DNA from: Actinomycetes bacterium | Lineage (GTDB): Bacteria; Actinomycetota; Actinomycetes; Propionibacteriales; Propionibacteriaceae | Assembly (NCBI GenBank): GCA_021803025.1 | Contig: JAJZQV010000017.1 | Span: 1-38,575 of the forward strand | Direction of reading: 5' to 3' | Length of the DNA: 38,575 nt | Shown here: positions 3,030 through 38,575 of the stretch, in pieces | Position numbering within the stretch: position 1 is the stretch's first letter | How the letters are laid out: each line of letters begins with the position of its first letter | Program-made: the position numbers and the translations under genes | Notes under the pieces: model-generated | Database searches by the model: none | Seen by the model: only the letters and a program-made list of their open reading frames with translations | Told to the model about the DNA's origin: nothing

Positions 3030-3989
3030 TCAGGCGACGAGCACGTGGATGTGGTCGTCGTGGTTGGCGGTGACGCTGCCGCGGTCCGGCATGGGCCGCC
3101 ACCCCTCGGAGGCGCGCTGCGTGGTCCAGATCTGCTGCTGGTAGATGATCTCGACGACTCCGAGCTTGCTGTAGTTGGCCCGCAGCCAGGCGGCGATCTG
3201 CTGGCCGCGGCCACCCGACGTCATGATGTCGAGCGCCTGCCCACTCGCGTGCTCGCTGCCGTCACCCCGGATCCCGCCGTACCTGGTGATGTCGGGGAAC
3301 GTCGTGCAGATCGCACGGTGCACGAGGATCGCGTTGGCGACGAGCCCGGCCTCCACGGCCGAGCCGGAGGCGCAGGCAGGGTACGAGGAGGCGGCGGCGC
3401 CTCTCGTCGAGACGGGCTTCTTCGTGGTCGCGGGTGCAGTCGTCGTCAACAGCGAGCTCTTGATGAACCCGGTCTTGGAGCCTGCCGCGACGGGCTGCCA
3501 ACCGCCGGCCGCGACGCCCGTGGCGGTGACCCGCGCGCCGGCTTCGAGCGTCGTGAGGACCGTACCCGCCGTCGAGGCGGTGGCGCGGACGTTGGCGGCG
3601 CTGAGGAGGTAGAACACCGCTGGGGCTGTCGACGTGTCGGCAGTCGCGGGCGGCGTGTCCGTCGCATCCGGCGTCTGGCTCGCAGCCTCGCGGTCGACGT
3701 AGGCACGGCTCAACGTCTGGACGTCACGGGCCATGGTCCCGGTGCTGGCTGCCGGCGTGGCCACCGCACCCTGTCCGAGTGGGGCCGCACCCTGTCCGAG
3801 TGGGGCCGCACCCGAGAGGACGATCCCGGCGCATACCGCGGCAGCCACCGCAGCCGCGCTCCTCGACCACAGCCGCGGACGTCGCCCGAGGAAGGCGAAC
3901 CGGCCGGAGAGAGCGCGCTTGGCCTCAGGACGTTCGCCGCCGCCAGCGCATACCGCGCCCGCGCTGCGCCGTGCCTGACCTGCCACCAT
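3030..3989 (-). CDS. Secreted SH3-domain protein with an M15-like C-terminal domain
   Basis: A 319-aa exported, probably cell-wall-acting protein. After a basic N-terminus there is a signal anchor (~43-62). A linker contains a duplicated LGQGAAP. A bacterial SH3 domain (~127-182) follows, then a Cys-bounded C-terminal domain (~204-319). The C-terminal domain carries SEHASGQALDIM (H247, D254) and DHIHV (H313, H315), the zinc-ligand pattern of the LAS/M15 D-Ala-D-Ala carboxypeptidase fold. Many actinobacterial proteins with this domain are uncharacterised. ATG at 3989 has a gaggtgga Shine-Dalgarno. A candidate promoter lies ~60-85 nt upstream. The inference is peptidoglycan cleavage or binding; the substrate is unknown. 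Confidence 0.8.
   Translation of the reverse strand: MVAGQARRSAGAVCAGGGERPEAKRALSGRFAFLGRRPRLWSRSAAAVAAAVCAGIVLSGAAPLGQGAAPLGQGAVATPAASTGTMARDVQTLSRAYVDREAASQTPDATDTPPATADTSTAPAVFYLLSAANVRATASTAGTVLTTLEAGARVTATGVAAGGWQPVAAGSKTGFIKSSLLTTTAPATTKKPVSTRGAAASSYPACASGSAVEAGLVANAILVHRAICTTFPDITRYGGIRGDGSEHASGQALDIMTSGGRGQQIAAWLRANYSKLGVVEIIYQQQIWTTQRASEGWRPMPDRGSVTANHDDHIHVLVA
3766..3807. repeat. 21-bp in-frame tandem duplication inside the SH3/M15-like gene
   Basis: A 21-bp unit beginning gcaccctgtccgag occurs at 3766-3786 and again at 3787-3807, plus a six-base partial third copy. On the minus strand it encodes two LGQGAAP heptapeptides in the linker after the signal anchor. The period is the same as that of the intergenic 21-bp family, but the sequence differs. 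Confidence 0.8.
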
Positions 3990-5296: not shown

Positions 5297-5944
5297 GTGA
5301 CTGACTGCGGCCCCCTCGACGTGCTCGGGAGGACCCGGCTCATCGCGTCCTTCCAACGGGGCGCCACAGCTCGTACGGTCGCCATCGCGACCGTGCTCGT
5401 CGAGGAAGGCTTCGCGGCTCTCACCGTCGACGTGGGGGACCTCGACCTCGTCGAACGGCTCGGCACGCTCCTGGGGGGCCGGGCGGTACTTGGCGTCCAC
5501 GGGGTCCGTACCGACGAGGCCCTGTACCGTGCCCACGACGCGGGCGCCACGTACGCCCTGGCGCCGATCGGTACGGCCGGGCTCGTGCGGGCCGCCCAGG
5601 ACAACGGCCTCCCCCTCTTCGCCGGAGCGATGACTCCCGCTGAGATCTCCGCCGCCGCCGCGCTCGGTGGGGCCGGCGTCCTCGTCCATCCGGCGGAGGT
5701 CCTCGGGACGAGCTACGCGCCCCACGCCGTCGCCGCGGCCGGTGACAGCCGCCTCGTCGTCGGCGGGTCGAGCCCGTACGGGGTCACCCAGTGGCTCAAC
5801 GCCGGCGCGTTCGCGGTCGTCGCCGACTCCTCGCTGCTGTCCGACGCGCTCGATCACGGCGACCTCGGATTCCTGCGGGACCGCGCCCGCAACTACACCA
5901 GCGAGACGGAGCGGATCGGCCCGTGGAGCCCGCCGGCCCCATGA
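5297..5944 (+). CDS. KDPG-aldolase-fold protein lacking catalytic residues
   Basis: A 215-aa TIM-barrel protein that aligns by eye with 2-keto-3-deoxy-6-phosphogluconate aldolase (Eda). Shared landmarks are the strand before ...HPAE (131-134, Eda FPAE), VVGGSSPYGVTQWLNAGAFAV (Eda PTGGISPANYRDYL...) and overall length. The Eda Schiff-base lysine, three residues before that Pro, is Leu129 here. The catalytic Glu of Eda EVTLR is Thr43, and the Arg is Gly47. Aldolase activity is therefore unlikely; a sugar-acid-binding or regulatory role is inferred. GTG start at 5297 with a weak Shine-Dalgarno. Its TGA overlaps the ATG of the helicase by 4 nt (ATGA), implying coupled translation. Confidence 0.7.
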   Translation: MTDCGPLDVLGRTRLIASFQRGATARTVAIATVLVEEGFAALTVDVGDLDLVERLGTLLGGRAVLGVHGVRTDEALYRAHDAGATYALAPIGTAGLVRAAQDNGLPLFAGAMTPAEISAAAALGGAGVLVHPAEVLGTSYAPHAVAAAGDSRLVVGGSSPYGVTQWLNAGAFAVVADSSLLSDALDHGDLGFLRDRARNYTSETERIGPWSPPAP

Positions 5945-8496
5945 GTGCGGCCGGCCCGGGCCGCGGCCCCTTCGGTGATCTCCTCGACGCGGGGCTCGAG
6001 GACACCGATGCGGTGTACGAGGCGTTCTCCGGGTGGCTTGCCGACCAGGGGCTCGTCGCGTACAGCCACCAGGACGAGTCCATCCTCGAGCTGCTCAGCG
6101 GCGCCAACGTCGTCCTCGCGACACCCACCGGGTCGGGCAAGTCGCTCGTCGCGACCGCCCTGCACCTCGCGACGGTCGCCGCGGGCGGTCGTACGTTCTA
6201 CACGGCCCCGATCAAAGCCCTCGTCAGCGAGAAGTTCTTCGCGCTCGTCGACCTGTTCGGCGCCGAGCGCGTCGGCATGCTCACGGGCGACGCCTCGGTC
6301 AACCCGGAGGCGCCGATCATCTGCTGCACCGCGGAGATCCTGGCCAACCTGGCTCTCCGGCAGGGCCCCGACGCGGACGTCGCGAGCGTCGTCATGGACG
6401 AGTTCCACTACTACGGCGACCCGTCGCGCGGCTGGGCGTGGCAGGTGCCGATCCTCGAGCTGACCCGGGCCCAGTTCCTCCTCATGTCGGCGACCCTGGG
6501 CGACACCTCCCGGCTGAGGGCCGACCTCACCCGACGGACCGGGCGGCCGACGGTGCTCGTGGACGACGCCGTACGGCCCGTGCCGCTGTCGTACGAGTGG
6601 GTGACGACGGCCGCGCACGAGACGATCGCCGACATCGTCGCGGAGCACCGCGCCCCCGTGTACGTCGTGCACGCCACGCAGAAGGAGGCCCTCGAACGCG
6701 CCCAGTCGCTTCTGTCGGCCGACCTCGGCAACCGGAGCCAGCGGGACGAGATCGCCGATGTGGTCGCGCGGTTCCGGTTCTCGGCCGGCTTCGGCCGTAC
6801 CCTCTCCAAGCTCGTCCGGCGCGGCATCGGCGTGCACCACGCGGGCATGCTGCCGCGCTACCGGCGTCTCGTCGAGAGGCTCTCCCAGGCCGGGCTGCTG
6901 AGCGTGATCTGCGGCACGGACACGCTCGGGGTGGGGATCAACGTCCCGATCCGGACTGTGCTGTTCACGACGCTCGCCCGGTACGACGGGCGGCGGGTAC
7001 GGATCGTGTCCGCACGCGACTTCCACCAGATCGCCGGTCGGGCAGGGCGCGCCGGCTTCGACACCCTCGGCTACGTCGAGGTGCAGGCGCCGGAGCACGT
7101 CATCGCCAACGAGAAGGCGCTCGCGAAGGCGGGGGACGACCCGAAGGCCCGCCGCAAGGTGATCCGCAAGCAGCCACCGGCCGGCACCGCCTCGTACACG
7201 CGGGAGACGTTCGACCGCCTCGTCGCCTCGCCGCCGGAGCCGCTCAAGAGCCGGATGCAGGTGACGTACGGGATGGTGCTCGACGTGGTCGCACGCCCCG
7301 GCAACCCCGTCGAGACGTTGCGCCACCTGCTCCTCGACAACCACGAGGACGCCGCGTCACAGCGCCGGCTCGTACGGCGGGCGCTGGCCATCGGGCGCTC
7401 GCTGCTGAGGGCCGGGATCGTGGTGCCCCTGCCGGAGCCGGACGCGACCGGTCGTACCCACCGGCTCACGGTCGACCTGCAGCACGACTTCGCGCTCAAC
7501 CAGCCGCTCAGCGCGTTCGCGCTGGCCGTCGTCGACGTGCTCGACCCCGACTCACCGTCGTACGCGCTCGACCTCGTCAGCGTCATCGAGGCAACGCTCG
7601 AGGACCCGCTCCCCGTCCTGCTGGCACAGCAGTTCGAGGCGCGCGGCGAGGCCGTACGGCAGATGAAGGACGAGGGGATCGAGTACGACGAGCGCATGGA
7701 GCTCCTCGAGGACGTGACGTGGCCGACGCCGCTGGCGGAGCTGCTCGAGCAGACCCTCACGACGTACCGGCAGACCCATCCCTGGCTGCCCGACTCCGTC
7801 CGGCCGAAGTCGGTGGTGCGCGACCTGTACGAGCGGGGGCTGACGTTCACCGAATACGTCGCCCACTACCGGCTCGCGCGCGTCGAGGGCGTCCTGCTGA
7901 GGTACCTCTCGGACGCGTACCGGGCGCTGCGCCGGACCGTGCCGGCGGCCAGCCGCGACGAGATGTTCAGCGACCTCGTCGAGTGGCTCGGGGAGCTCGT
8001 GCGGCAGACCGACTCCTCGCTGGTGGCCGAGTGGGAGTCGCTGCTCGCCGGCCTGGCACCGGGCGAGGTCGCCGAGGTGTCCGAGCGACCCATCACCGCG
8101 AACACGCGAGCGTTCCGTGTGCTCGTACGGAATGCGATGTACAGGCGGGTCGAGCTCGTCGCCCGGGACGATGTCGATGGTCTGGTCGAGGCGGAGGAGC
8201 TGGCGGCGGCCGCCACGGACCCGCCCCAGACCGTCGTCATGGACCGTGCGGCGTGGGACGACGCGCTCGACGCGTACTACGCGGAGCACGACACGGTCCA
8301 GCTCGGCCCGGACTCGCGCGGTCCGGGCCTCCTGGTCGTGTCCGAGCTGGCGGGCCGGCGCTGGGAGGTTCGGCAGGTGATCGACGACCCGGCCGGAAAC
8401 CACGACTGGTCGATCCTTGCCGAGGTCGACCTCGGCGCCAGCGACGAGACGGGCGACCTCGTGCTGAGGACGCTCGCGATGGAGCGCCTCGACTGA
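5941..8496 (+). CDS. DEAD/DEAH-box helicase with DUF3516-type C-terminus
   Basis: An 851-aa SF2 helicase. Walker A ATPTGSGKS (60-68), a motif Ia-like TAPIKALVSEK (88-98), DEFH as motif II (153-156), SAT (183-185) and motif VI QIAGRAGRAG (363-372) are all present. This is the Ski2-like layout, with a long C-terminal region characteristic of actinobacterial DUF3516 helicases. Nucleic-acid unwinding driven by ATP is expected, and RNA is a likely substrate from the Ski2 resemblance. I chose ATG 5941 over upstream starts because it makes the classic ATGA overlap with the preceding gene and begins a natural N-terminus. One nucleotide after its stop begins a 21-bp tandem array. Confidence 0.92.
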   Translation: MSAAGPGRGPFGDLLDAGLEDTDAVYEAFSGWLADQGLVAYSHQDESILELLSGANVVLATPTGSGKSLVATALHLATVAAGGRTFYTAPIKALVSEKFFALVDLFGAERVGMLTGDASVNPEAPIICCTAEILANLALRQGPDADVASVVMDEFHYYGDPSRGWAWQVPILELTRAQFLLMSATLGDTSRLRADLTRRTGRPTVLVDDAVRPVPLSYEWVTTAAHETIADIVAEHRAPVYVVHATQKEALERAQSLLSADLGNRSQRDEIADVVARFRFSAGFGRTLSKLVRRGIGVHHAGMLPRYRRLVERLSQAGLLSVICGTDTLGVGINVPIRTVLFTTLARYDGRRVRIVSARDFHQIAGRAGRAGFDTLGYVEVQAPEHVIANEKALAKAGDDPKARRKVIRKQPPAGTASYTRETFDRLVASPPEPLKSRMQVTYGMVLDVVARPGNPVETLRHLLLDNHEDAASQRRLVRRALAIGRSLLRAGIVVPLPEPDATGRTHRLTVDLQHDFALNQPLSAFALAVVDVLDPDSPSYALDLVSVIEATLEDPLPVLLAQQFEARGEAVRQMKDEGIEYDERMELLEDVTWPTPLAELLEQTLTTYRQTHPWLPDSVRPKSVVRDLYERGLTFTEYVAHYRLARVEGVLLRYLSDAYRALRRTVPAASRDEMFSDLVEWLGELVRQTDSSLVAEWESLLAGLAPGEVAEVSERPITANTRAFRVLVRNAMYRRVELVARDDVDGLVEAEELAAAATDPPQTVVMDRAAWDDALDAYYAEHDTVQLGPDSRGPGLLVVSELAGRRWEVRQVIDDPAGNHDWSILAEVDLGASDETGDLVLRTLAMERLD

Positions 8497-8497
8497 C

Positions 8498-8623
8498 CTC
8501 CGGGAGAGGACCTATCCGCTCCAGGAGAGGACCTATCCGCTCGAGGAGAGGACCTGTGCGCTCGGGGAGAGGACCTATGCGCTCGAGGAGAGGACCTATC
8601 CGCTCGGGGAGAGGACCGTGCGG
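8498..8623 (+). repeat. 21-bp tandem array, six units, 3' of the helicase
   Basis: Six head-to-tail 21-bp units start at 8498, 8519, 8540, 8561, 8582 and 8603. Each begins ctc(c/g)(g/a)ggagaggacc, and the first five end tat/tgt plus (c/g)cg; unit 6 diverges in its last six bases. The array begins one nucleotide after the helicase TGA. The same unit recurs in inverse orientation at 8739-8801 and again at 37634-37697, so this is a dispersed family rather than a single slippage event. There are no spacers, so it is not CRISPR. Confidence 0.95.
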
Positions 8624-8670
8624 TTGCGAGAGAGCATTGGCGCACTGCACCCCAGGCAGCCCCCTGCCAC

Positions 8671-8726
8671 GAAAGGCCACGACACGCGCGGTCAGAGCGG
8701 CGTGTCTGCGCACGAACTGGCCTTTC
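8671..8726. other. Nested hairpin between the two 21-bp arrays
   Basis: Outer arms gaaaggcca (8671-8679) and tggcctttc (8718-8726) are perfect complements. Inside them lie gacacgc (8681-8687) and gcgtgtc (8700-8706), also perfect. The joining segments are 1 nt on the left and 11 nt on the right. It lies between convergent genes and could terminate either transcript. Confidence 0.6.
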
Positions 8727-8738
8727 GCAGCCGAACCC

Positions 8739-8801
8739 GGCACAGATGCTCTCCCCGAGCGCACAGGTCCTCTCCCCGAGCGCACAAGTCCTCTCCCCGA
8801 G
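8739..8801 (-). repeat. 21-bp tandem array, three inverted units, 3' of the anti-sigma gene
   Basis: Units at 8739-8759, 8760-8780 and 8781-8801 all end ctctccccgag. The middle one is the exact reverse complement of unit 3 or 4 of the upstream array, allowing for one variable base. On the minus strand the array starts 12 nt after the anti-sigma stop codon, so it has the same orientation to that gene as the first array has to the helicase. Confidence 0.93.
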
Positions 8802-8813
8802 CAGGCGTTACGG

Positions 8814-9467
8814 CTAGAGCTCAGCGACCGCGACCAGGGCGCCGGAGGACGTGACGAGCTCAACCTTCCGGATCTCCCCCAGCTGGCTGGAGCAGGCGGT
8901 GGTGAGCATGACCCTGCCCGACGGGATCGCCTTCCAGGTGGCCACCTGGGTGTCGCGACCGGCCGCGTCGTAGACCCACACCGTCATCTCGCCCGCCGTC
9001 GGGAGGTTGGCGCCCTCGACCTGCAGCTCGGTGCCCCACGCCTTCGTGATGAACGAGACCTGTACGGCCGCCTGCGAGCCGGTACCGGGCGTGGCAGTGA
9101 CCTTCGCCGCGGCGACGGGTGCAGGGGTACGGCCCATGGTCGTCCCCAGCGCCGCACCGGCGCCCAGCATCGCGACCGCCAGCACGACCGCAGCGACCGC
9201 CGTGAGGAGACGAGACCGGCGCCGTCGCGCCCGTACCAGCGCAAGCACCGGCTGGGGCACCGGCTCCGTCGTGGCGGGGACCTCCGCCAGTGCTTCCGGG
9301 CTCGCGAGGTCCAGCAGCCGCGGGATGCTGCTCACCTGCGCCAGCTCTCGTTGGCAGAGGGGGCATTCCCGCAGGTGCGCGGCGAAGGCCGCGTGGTCGG
9401 CGTCGTTGAGGCCGCCGAGCACGTACGCGCCCATGAGGACCTGCAGCTCGTCGTGGCCCGCGGTCAT
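8814..9467 (-). CDS. Anti-sigma factor, RskA-like, zinc-binding
   Basis: A 217-aa membrane-bound regulator. The cytoplasmic N-terminus has the zinc anti-sigma motif HLRECPLC (H31, C35, C38). A single membrane helix (~86-108) follows an RARRRRSR stop-transfer patch. The C-terminal ~105 residues are an extracytoplasmic beta-rich domain (GEMTVWVYDAAG...) like RskA/anti-SigK proteins. It would sequester the adjacent ECF sigma factor until proteolysed. Its ATG overlaps the sigma TGA by 4 nt, so the two are co-translated. There is no separate promoter between them. Confidence 0.9.
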   Translation of the reverse strand: MTAGHDELQVLMGAYVLGGLNDADHAAFAAHLRECPLCQRELAQVSSIPRLLDLASPEALAEVPATTEPVPQPVLALVRARRRRSRLLTAVAAVVLAVAMLGAGAALGTTMGRTPAPVAAAKVTATPGTGSQAAVQVSFITKAWGTELQVEGANLPTAGEMTVWVYDAAGRDTQVATWKAIPSGRVMLTTACSSQLGEIRKVELVTSSGALVAVAEL

Positions 9468-9967
9468 CGCCTGACTCCCATCTCGTCGAGGATCACGCGG
9501 AGCTGTCTCAGCGCGTAGAAGGCCCGGGACTTCACCGTGCCCTCCGGCACCCCGAGCGTGGTCGCGGCATCGGCGACGCTCATCCGCTGCACGTGGAGCA
9601 GCCGGACGACGGCGAGGTGGTCCGCCGAGAGCCTCGCGAGAGCCTGGTCGATCACCAGCGCATCCAGGGCACGGTCGATCTCGTCGGCGTCGATCGGCGG
9701 CTCGACGAGGTTCTCGTCCACCGACGTGACCTCCTTCGGCCGTCTCGCTGCGGCCCGGTAGCGGTCCACGAGAAGGTTACGCGTGGCCTGTGCGAGGTAG
9801 GCCGCCATGTTGTCGTCCTTCGGCGCCGCGCGCCACACCCTCACGATGACCTCCTGCACGACGTCCTCCGCCGCCGCTGCGTCGTGCGTGCCGCGCATCG
9901 CCATCCGGCGCACCATCGAGGCGTAGCCACGGTAGATCGCCGCGATCGCGTCGTCGTCGAGCGGCAT
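9464..9967 (-). CDS. ECF RNA polymerase sigma factor
   Basis: A 167-aa two-domain sigma-70 factor. Region 2 spans ~10-78, with AEDVVQEVIVRVWR and a YLAQATRNLLVDRYR helix for -10 recognition. Region 4 spans ~112-165, with SVADAATTLGVPEGTVKSRAF as the helix-turn-helix that reads the -35. Its length is normal for ECF factors without extra domains. The ATG at 9967 has a gaggagggg Shine-Dalgarno. Co-operonic and overlapping with the anti-sigma gene; divergent from a lipoprotein gene that is a plausible target. Most like the SigK/SigL type, but the subgroup is not certain. Confidence 0.93.
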   Translation of the reverse strand: MPLDDDAIAAIYRGYASMVRRMAMRGTHDAAAAEDVVQEVIVRVWRAAPKDDNMAAYLAQATRNLLVDRYRAAARRPKEVTSVDENLVEPPIDADEIDRALDALVIDQALARLSADHLAVVRLLHVQRMSVADAATTLGVPEGTVKSRAFYALRQLRVILDEMGVRR

Positions 9968-35052: not shown

Positions 35053-35562
35053 ATGAACAAGATCGCCGTAACCATCGCCGCCAGCTGCGCCCTCATGGTC
35101 GGGCCCGTCGCGTTCGCCGCGGCGCAGGTCGAGGGTGCGCCGCTGCGCCCGCACGCGAGCGCGACACCCAGCGAGGTGTCGGAGTCCCCAGAGCCCAGCG
35201 AGTCGGTCGAGCCCGCGGAGTCGGCTGAACCCACGGAGTCAGTCGAGCCCGCGGAGTCGGCTGAACCCACGGAGTCGGTCGAGCCCAGCGAGTCGGCTGA
35301 ACCCACGAAGTCGGCTGACCCCACGGAGTCGGTCAAGCCCGAGGAGTCGGTCGAGCCCAGCGAGTCGGAGACGCCCGAGGCGGCAGACGCCGCGACTGCC
35401 TCGGCCGACCACACGTTCACCCACGGGCTGCCCGGTGCTCTCTCGGCTTCCGCGACGCCGGGCCACGACTTCGGCCAGTACGTCTCCGGCATCAACAAGA
35501 CCGGCGCCCCCGGCGCGGTCGCGTCGGCCATGGGCAAGGGCAAGGGCAAGGGCCACAGCTGA
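35053..35562 (+). CDS. Secreted acidic repeat protein (Glu-Pro-Ser/Thr)
   Basis: A 169-aa exported low-complexity protein. A signal peptide (1-~24, cut near AFAAA) leads to ~80 residues of PSESVEPAESAEPTE-type repeats. At the DNA level this is a 36-bp unit (encoding AESAEPTESVEP) present about twice in near-perfect form, plus degenerate copies. After ~115 there is a non-repetitive tail (HTFTHGLPGALSASATPGHDFGQYVSGINKTG) ending in MGKGKGKGHS. The tail resembles the end of small secreted actinobacterial proteins of unknown function. The acidic stalk and basic end suggest wall or polyphosphate/calcium interactions; this is a guess. ATG at 35053 has a weak Shine-Dalgarno. Confidence 0.65.
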   Translation: MNKIAVTIAASCALMVGPVAFAAAQVEGAPLRPHASATPSEVSESPEPSESVEPAESAEPTESVEPAESAEPTESVEPSESAEPTKSADPTESVKPEESVEPSESETPEAADAATASADHTFTHGLPGALSASATPGHDFGQYVSGINKTGAPGAVASAMGKGKGKGHS

Positions 35563-37570: not shown

Positions 37571-37697
37571 CCGCAGACTCCTCTCGCCGATGGCAAGATC
37601 CCCTCGCCTACGCATGTACCGCCTCTCGCGATCCGCACAAGTTTCTTTCCCCGAGTGCACAGGTTCTCTCCCCGAGCGCACAGGTTCTCTCCCCGAG
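37571..37697 (-). repeat. 21-bp tandem array, third copy of the family
   Basis: Clear units lie at 37634-37655 (22 bp), 37656-37676 and 37677-37697, each ending ccccgag on the plus strand. The last differs from a unit of the 8.7-kb array at one position in 21. Upstream of 37634, three or so degenerate units (...ctcctctcgccga..., ...cccctcgcctac..., ...gcctctcgcg...) extend the array to ~37571. On the minus strand it starts three nucleotides after the TGA of the following gene (37701-37703). Confidence 0.88.
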
Positions 37698-37700
37698 GGA

Positions 37701-38575
37701 TCAGTGGGACGTGAGCGCTCGCGCGGCCACGACCCAGGACTCCGCGTCCGCCTCCTTGGGGCGCCAGCGGCCCGCACCCTCCACGGACGCGGCGGCCTTG
37801 GCGTACCTGTTCACCACGGTCGCCGGCTTCATCCCCGCCAGGGCGGCGACGTCGTGGATGCCCGCCTCGTACAGGACCCTCGCCTTCGTCCCGTCGAGAC
37901 CGGGCACGGTGAGCAGGCCCGCCAGCAGCACGTACCGGCCGAGCTCCTCGCGGGTCACGCCCAGCATGCTCACCAGCTCCGCCGTGGCTGTGGCGTGCGT
38001 CGCGACGCGGGCCAGCTCCGAGGTGGTCGTGACGTGGGCGCCCCGCAGCGCATCCGCCTGCGCCGGCGACAGCCCGAGCGCCTCGAGGGGGCTGTCCGCA
38101 CCGCGCACCGCACGACCTCCGCCGGGCCCCGCAACCGCGACAGTCCCAGCCGCCGCAGGCCCGCCGGACGTGTCGACCGGGTCCGGAACGGGCTTCGGGA
38201 TCGGAACCACGGTGAGCGTGACCGTCGACAGCGCCGCGGCGTTGACCGCCTCGCCGGGCTTCACGAACTGGAACCCGATCGTCCCGAGCGCCGTGACGTC
38301 GACGTGGACCTTCGACTCGAGGGTGAACTCCCGTACGGCGAAGTTCGACGTCGTGTTCGTCATCGAGCCCAGCCTGTCCGCGAGCGAGTCGAGGGCGTTC
38401 TGCACGCCCTCGGCGAGGTTGTCCGCCGACCTGGGAGGTGCGGTCAGGGCGTCGAGCTTCGCCTGCAGTGCGGCCGCGCTGGACTTCGCCTCGGCGAGCT
38501 CCCCCCGGAGCACGTCGACGATCTTGCTGAGGTTGTCCGTGTTGTCGCCGCCCTTCGACGTGAGTGGCGTGAAGA
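37701..38575 (-). CDS. Coiled-coil protein with a C-terminal helix-hairpin-helix-like (DUF4332) region, 5' end beyond the window
   Basis: The last ~291 residues of a protein that starts outside the window; the frame is open to the edge. A coiled coil (LRGELAEAKSSAAALQAKLDAL) leads to a beta-rich middle (TSNFAVREFTLESKVHVDVTALG). After a Pro/Gly linker come two helical repeats: SPLEALGLSPAQADALRGAHVTTTSELARVA and LLTVPGLDGTKARVLYEAGIHDVAALAGM, which match the DUF4332-type HhH pattern 'PG(L/I)...A..L..AGI.....LA'. Such domains usually bind DNA or protein. Its stop abuts the third 21-bp array. Confidence 0.6.
   Translation of the reverse strand, partial: FTPLTSKGGDNTDNLSKIVDVLRGELAEAKSSAAALQAKLDALTAPPRSADNLAEGVQNALDSLADRLGSMTNTTSNFAVREFTLESKVHVDVTALGTIGFQFVKPGEAVNAAALSTVTLTVVPIPKPVPDPVDTSGGPAAAGTVAVAGPGGGRAVRGADSPLEALGLSPAQADALRGAHVTTTSELARVATHATATAELVSMLGVTREELGRYVLLAGLLTVPGLDGTKARVLYEAGIHDVAALAGMKPATVVNRYAKAAASVEGAGRWRPKEADAESWVVAARALTSH

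Follow-up and report, generated by a model that had tools for sequence, protein, structure and literature searches.

Arrays of a 21-bp unit between two convergent genes

The window, that is, the whole stretch of 38,575 nucleotides that was analysed, comes from a draft genome of 3.37 Mb in 191 contigs (G000). A helicase gene and an anti-sigma-type gene converge on a spacer that holds two arrays of a 21-bp unit, with a palindrome (the B element) between them, and a third array lies near the far end of the window:

5923..8496, plus strand: gene for a DEAD-box helicase with DUF3516 (PF00270, PF12029); start taken from a purpose-written gene caller
8494..8496, plus strand: TGA that ends the helicase gene, from which the distance of array A is measured
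8498..8623, plus strand: array A, six 21-bp units, of which the last is imperfect towards its 3' end
8670..8727, no strand assigned: B element, a 58-bp imperfect palindrome, one of 42 copies in G000
8739..8801, minus strand: array B, three inverted units that face array A
8814..8816, minus strand: stop codon of the anti-sigma gene, reference point for array B
8814..9467, minus strand: gene for a zf-HC2 anti-sigma-type protein, adjoining an ECF sigma gene (9464-9967)
37634..37697, minus strand: third array, three units, of which the position weight matrix (PWM) found two
37701-38573: DUF4332 gene, whose stop lies 3 nt from the third array

The six units of array A follow the helicase TGA directly, with 1 nt in between, and 12 nt separate the anti-sigma stop from the three inverted units behind it. 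These coordinates, first given in a sequence-only reading of the window, were confirmed, and the nested hairpin that it had placed between the arrays is present at 8670-8727. The consensus of the array A unit in G000 is CTCGGGGAGAGGACCTGTGCG, and the two 21-bp rows formed by arrays A and B received TRF scores of 188 and 105. The same reading had noticed that the units vary at only a few positions; across G000 most of the variation is indeed found at positions 4, 5, 12, 17 and 19.

The window also contains other repeats. A perfect 2.4-copy 21-bp repeat of unrelated sequence at 3764-3813 lies upstream of a called minus-strand gene (3030-3617) and may be coding N-terminal sequence; no exact copy of it was found in 174 fetched loci. 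Repeats of 18/36 bp at 35191-35391 lie within a called gene (35053-35562) and are probably coding.

Copies in the genome and distribution in the genus

A search of G000 that allowed up to three mismatches yielded 114 unit matches versus 4 for a reversed control, so that the family is beyond chance and not local to the window. Random scatter of the copies relative to genes, or their confinement to the window, would have spoken against the sequence-only reading, and neither was observed. A purpose-made scan of the fetched G000 loci revealed 127 units in 41 runs, which a spacer-level count assigned to 33 spacers. The run at L054, a low-scoring match inside a gene, is probably due to chance.

All six of the searched relatives in the genus contain the family, and the unit search matched 7 of 7 genus genomes and none of 30 others. 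Matches to the core pattern numbered 32 in G000, 28 in G005, 14 in G001, 96 in G003, 78 in G004, 2 in G002 and 0 in G006; a dialect pattern gave 237 matches in G002 (control 0) and a looser pattern 29 in G006 (control 3). The six core-pattern matches in 110 other genomes of the bacterial family, versus three for the control, are at the level of chance. An 18-base stretch of the unit had no exact match among viral contigs and matched three records among genome contigs: the Propionibacteriaceae MAG PMLO01000017.1 and, with one match each, an Oscillospiraceae MAG and a Gemmatimonadales MAG. Several relatives have arrays with N runs or at contig ends, and the G002 contigs C31, C64, C66, C78 and C80 end or start inside or beside arrays. 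The array lengths in these drafts are therefore likely underestimated.

Placement and orientation relative to genes

Genes were called with a codon-usage caller written for this analysis, and the placement counts pool orthologous loci and partner arrays. G000 has 36 arrays of at least two units, 18 in convergent and 14 in tandem spacers, 1 in a divergent spacer and 3 at contig edges; of the 33 that can be classified, 32 share their spacer with the 3' end of a gene and 1 is in a divergent spacer. A comparison of 169 spacers of at least 60 nt, all from fetched G000 loci that had been picked for arrays or B elements, revealed the convergent type in 13 of 28 array spacers versus 19 of 141 array-less spacers (p=0.0002) and the divergent type in 1 of 28 versus 47 of 141 (p=0.0009). 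Non-random placement at 3' ends, which had been set against random slippage on the strength of the window, was upheld genome-wide and between species.

The nearest stop lies on the sense side of 25 G000 arrays and on the antisense side of 7 (p=0.002), and 23 of the 25 sense-side arrays are no more than 30 nt away from it. The ratio for all arrays of at least two units, edges included, is 85 sense to 56 antisense (p=0.018), and 60 to 48 when G000 is left aside (p=0.29). Counts that exclude arrays with only one visible gene end are 17:10 in G005, 22:16 in G002, 4:3 in G003, 6:3 in G004 and 2:2 in G001, none significant alone; results for G001, G003 and G004 rest on 4, 6 and 9 loci, respectively. 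A plain sense excess is clear only in G000. The orientation to the gene that the sequence-only reading took to be conserved thus holds in G000 (25:7) and fails as a plain excess elsewhere (60:48), where it is retained only in the closer stop contact of sense arrays and in inward-facing pairs.

Stop contact depends on orientation: the nearest stop is at most 30 nt away for 63 of 85 sense arrays versus 24 of 56 antisense ones (six genomes, edges included; p=0.0003), and without G000 the corresponding numbers are 40 of 60 versus 20 of 48 (p=0.012). Arrays in the tandem-gene spacers of the six genomes are nearer to the stop than to the next start in 33 of 39 sense cases and 15 of 28 antisense cases (p=0.007); single arrays in tandem spacers are sense in 23 and antisense in 10 (p=0.035). 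Where one spacer has two opposed arrays, 29 pairs face inward and 5 outward (p=7e-5 for 28:5), a count that excludes five spacers with at least three arrays and three with two arrays of the same direction.

Contig edges give another picture. With strong single units included, the visible stop is on the sense side of 10 edge arrays and on the antisense side of 16; nine of these 16, among them all four of G004, lie within 30 nt of it, and single-array edge spacers are sense in 5 and antisense in 11. Unless the gene hidden beyond the contig end is the one to which the array belongs, these counts oppose a strict rule of orientation, and they lowered our confidence in the arrays as boundary elements and slightly raised that in a selfish minisatellite, both of which are discussed below. 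Single departures are also seen: 2 of 39 G005 arrays lie inside called genes, and an outward pair with both arrays antisense to their genes is common to G000 and G005 (L051 1153-1304, L090 2867-3024). At L039 the 3' end of a tRNA-Ser gene has a single unit 6 nt away, on the other strand.

Species dialects at common sites

The unit consensus differs from species to species. The dominant period, counted over unit-to-unit steps, is 21 bp for G000 (80 of 86) and G001 (4 of 7) and 22 bp for G002 (222 of 233), G003 (40 of 41) and G004 (29 of 32); G005 is mixed, with 80 of 104 steps at 21 bp and 20 at 22 bp. GAGAG is present in 93-100% of the units of each genome, a conservation that is partly built in, as the units were found by PWMs trained on the same loci. 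Mean mismatches between arrays within a genome are 3.8 (G000), 5.1 (G002) and 3.7 (G003), compared with 5.7-8.3 between genomes for the arrays of these three. The mean unit distance of the G000 arrays is 5.7 to G005, 7.0 to G002 and 6.2 to G003; the internal array diversity of G005 (6.3) is larger than its distance to G000. When the genome labels of 148 arrays were shuffled, the observed excess of 1.92 was never approached, the maximum in 2000 shuffles being 0.23. Units within one array are the most alike in all four genomes compared. Orthologous array pairs (n=14) differ by 4.5-8.9, and the ortholog is closer than the average non-orthologous array in 7 pairs and farther in 7.

Retention of arrays was followed in G005 and G002, with the C-terminal 60 residues of 33 G000 genes associated with arrays as queries; the 3% base rate used in this test is an estimate. 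Of 21 orthologous spacers in G005, units are present in 10 (just one scored unit in two of these) and absent from 11, one of which was reached through a match of 33 residues and is perhaps not orthologous; 5 of the 33 genes had no locus and 1 was cut by a contig end. G002 has an array in 8 of 19 orthologous spacers, one of the 8 being of a second unit type recognised by eye and by a later unit search, and none in 11; 10 of 33 had no locus, N masked 1, and another yielded no stop, its spacer being accounted for by c28. Since about half of the orthologous spacers are without an array, the array is not a general terminator. B elements occur instead in the array-less spacers L160 (G005) and L173 (G002), the latter with three copies. 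At L172 (G002), inspection revealed CTCCAA/TTGGAG palindromes behind both stops where G000 has facing arrays.

At gene end c6, each of three species has a unit sequence of its own, located 2-4 nt past the stop. The helicase end carries three units in G005 and, in G001, two units and a degenerate one, the first of which begins in the stop codon; in G002 no units were found there. A search with C-terminal residues did not find the anti-sigma gene in G002, so that the neighbour of the helicase gene there probably differs. Array sites are often common to species while the unit sequence, and even the period, is not; the site, the period and the GAGAG core outlast the remaining sequence of the unit.

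The dispersed palindrome and a second unit family

The B element has the ends TCGARAGGCCACGACACGCGCGG...CTGGCCTCTCG and a length of 58-59 bp. All 26 placed copies in G000 are intergenic, and for 8 of the 26 an array or unit is no more than 200 nt away, at loci partly picked for arrays. Its orientation shows no bias (8 sense, 11 antisense), and it lies farther from stops than the arrays do. B-like elements also occur in G002, G003 and G005; L173 has three consecutive copies at 1147-1385. The B element is separate from the 21-bp unit family. Two genes of G000, L030 2392-3240 and L036 1794-2645, have closely similar C-termini, and behind each come a B element and an inverted array, which suggests that the entire gene end was duplicated or converted.

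G002 possesses a second unit family, CCGAGAGACTTCCGCACCC, with 33 matches (control 1), often in 22-bp steps; none was found in the other six genomes. Sense runs of at least two units lie behind stops at distances of 3 nt (L166, where a further run lies farther on), 57 nt (L175), 12 nt (L176), 23 nt (L177), 13 nt (L178), 15 nt (L180) and 50 nt (L184). At L182 a run is located between two stops, the nearer of which (13 nt) is on the antisense side. Antisense runs are seen at L177, L179, L180 and L181; the ones at L177 and L180 are inward partners. The layout of this family is similar to that of the first. Six G002 arrays (L098, L115, L121, L124, L131 and L134) are preceded upstream by a hairpin element composed of CCCTTCGAGACG, a variable stem and CTCCTCAGGGACCCG. 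The letters of the stem vary while the pairing stays, which looks compensatory.

Comparison with known repeats

The Y1_Tnp domain of RAYT proteins (PF01797) was absent from four genus genomes, all drafts, and was detected in 5 of 14 control genomes; a REP family driven by RAYT was dropped as a candidate for this reason. Eight array loci, a set outside the window, had no Rfam match at the gathering score. Outside the 2-3 nt that adjoin the units, the flanks carry little information content above background (34 G000 and 39 G002 arrays). Alike flank pairs numbered 34 in G000 and 60 in G002; among flanks without unit-like or B-like motifs there was 1 alike pair among 43 in G000, from two paralogous gene ends, and 14 among 39 in G002, where the common upstream hairpin of the six arrays accompanies the remaining alike flanks. 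MITE ends were also dropped because the flanks are mostly not shared.

The MIRU of mycobacteria are likewise actinobacterial, intergenic and tandem, are oriented with the flanking genes and meet stop codons. Their units measure about 50-100 bp and lie within operons; unlike them, the units described here are 21-22 bp long and favour convergent spacers, and a Propionibacteriaceae MAG is among the matches. The minisatellite MITE BrickBuilt of Porphyromonas gingivalis, whose unit has 23 nt, is similar in that, according to its description (PMC4596501), it is tandem without spacers between the units, intergenic, multi-copy and confined to a narrow host group. The same description assigns to it leader and tail subunits with inverted ends, distances of 49-591 nt from genes and promoter activity; the flanks of the arrays here are mostly unshared, sense arrays abut stops and the units are species-specific. 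REP/BIME elements, as described in PMC2817692, are also short, intergenic and species-specific, with copies regularly spaced within clusters, and roles in chromosome organisation and termination have been proposed for them there. The units here differ from them in being non-palindromic and head to tail at 21-22 bp, with no Y1_Tnp gene in the four genus genomes. The DUS dialects of the Neisseriaceae resemble the family in combining a short motif, a conserved core and a species dialect at many sites, but PMC3630211 gives thousands of copies, versus tens to hundreds here, in tandem at gene ends. The TAACTGA repeats of the Beggiatoaceae form many intergenic tandem sets at a consistent position relative to genes, and PMC4679880 suggests that they are binding sites of a regulator; they are heptamers mostly just upstream of starts, in contrast to the 21-22-mers behind stops found here. 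No paper among the matches listed from the open-licence PMC literature describes a stop-anchored tandem array with species dialects.

Possible functions of the arrays

Facing arrays could form a long stem in the transcript and, as a terminator or a REP-like 3' stabiliser, block RNA polymerase or 3' exonucleases. The paired arrays of the window fold far below shuffles (z -10.6), gene ends with facing arrays have a mean z of -4.73 (n=10), and inward facing predominates. However, the single array is the commoner state in G000, and single arrays have a mean z of -0.51 (n=31) versus -0.88 for other gene ends (60 of 102). Moreover, the likeness of facing arrays does not exceed that of arrays taken at random from their genome, and is lower in G005 (5 pairs in G000, 9 in G005 and 11 in G002), and a U-tract was not seen behind the arrays inspected. 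Pairwise associations between positions within units were weak in G000 and strongest between neighbours in G002, and no stem emerged from them. The hairpin was dropped as a common mechanism on account of the background folding of single arrays and the mismatch of facing ones, and as an explanation of the family we consider it improbable. An intrinsic terminator was not recognised either, as single arrays fold like background and inspection revealed no T-run, even though facing pairs do fold. The RNA-level or transcription-end function suggested by the sequence-only reading may hold, but hardly as a plain RNA hairpin. Gyrase is one of the proteins that bind BIMEs. By analogy with what has been proposed for REP/BIME, the arrays might be sites at which gyrase or a nucleoid protein binds in regions that accumulate positive supercoils; their enrichment in convergent spacers, a period of about two helical turns and the binding of several proteins to BIMEs, reported in PMC2817692, are consistent with such an element. 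A symmetrical sink for supercoils would not be expected to give orientation-dependent stop contact, and we consider this quite improbable. Least probable are effects of composition or motif, such as a G-rich R-loop or pause, C-rich loading of Rho on the opposite strand, ribosome capture by a Shine-Dalgarno-like sequence or a DNA-uptake sequence. The sense strand in G000 is G-rich (GC skew 0.23) and contains GGAG, and the unit dialects recall those of the DUS as presented in PMC3630211. But the skew is -0.07 in G004 and -0.29 in the second G002 unit, and GGAG is missing from the consensus in G003, in G004 and in the second G002 unit. G-skew, R-loop formation and composition-based Rho loading were dropped because the base skew is not conserved, and Shine-Dalgarno-like capture because some dialects are without GGAG. 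The copies here are clustered and number tens to hundreds per genome, compared with the thousands that PMC3630211 gives for DUS.

A selfish or neutral minisatellite has to be taken far more seriously. Its units would spread, be homogenised by gene conversion and unequal crossing over, and persist mainly behind genes, as they would not be tolerated in promoters or coding regions. The greater likeness of arrays within G000, G002 and G003 than between genomes, never matched by label shuffling, points to such a process, as do the close likeness of units within arrays in four genomes and the finding that orthologous arrays are closer than non-orthologous ones in just 7 of 14 pairs. Tolerance would account for the avoidance of divergent spacers; about half of the orthologous spacers are without an array, the sense excess is not significant outside G000, and a bacterial precedent with a 23-nt unit exists in BrickBuilt (PMC4596501). 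On the other side, sites are kept although units are replaced, a second unit family in G002 has a similar layout, and the B element, also intergenic, is without orientation bias and farther from stops. Homogenisation is uneven as well, as seen in the internal diversity of G005 (6.3 versus 5.7 to G000). Tolerance predicts neither orientation-dependent stop contact nor inward pairs, and these two features narrowly favour reading the arrays as boundary elements, with which the minisatellite is almost level.

Our tentative preference, held at well below even confidence, is that the arrays are directional gene-end boundary elements read by a putative factor. Genus-specific tandem arrays of a GAGAG-centred unit of 21-22 bp, corresponding to two helical turns, would form a directional boundary at gene ends. 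A sequence-specific trans factor would read the repeated core, either as a roadblock bound to the DNA or on the nascent RNA, and would stop or mark transcription that enters the spacer from the upstream side of the array. Convergent or neighbouring genes would be insulated as the outcome, and unit and factor would have co-evolved, giving rise to the species dialects. The layout of the arrays, with 3'-end spacers, stop contact, inward pairs and shared sites, was observed; from it we infer the factor and the role in transcription. That the arrays represent a new class of hairpin-free directional boundary, in which stop-anchored tandem sites two helical turns apart would persist while the dialect and even the 21/22-bp period are rewritten, seems doubtful on the sequences at hand.

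Many of the dispersed bacterial repeats described are palindromic or MITE-borne, and their ties to genes are loose. In the present genus, a simple tandem repeat is linked to gene ends in different species, and its sequence is replaced from one to the next. This enables one to ask whether gene-end repeat families are kept for a function or merely tolerated, and it may point to an undescribed system of termination or insulation in the Actinobacteria.
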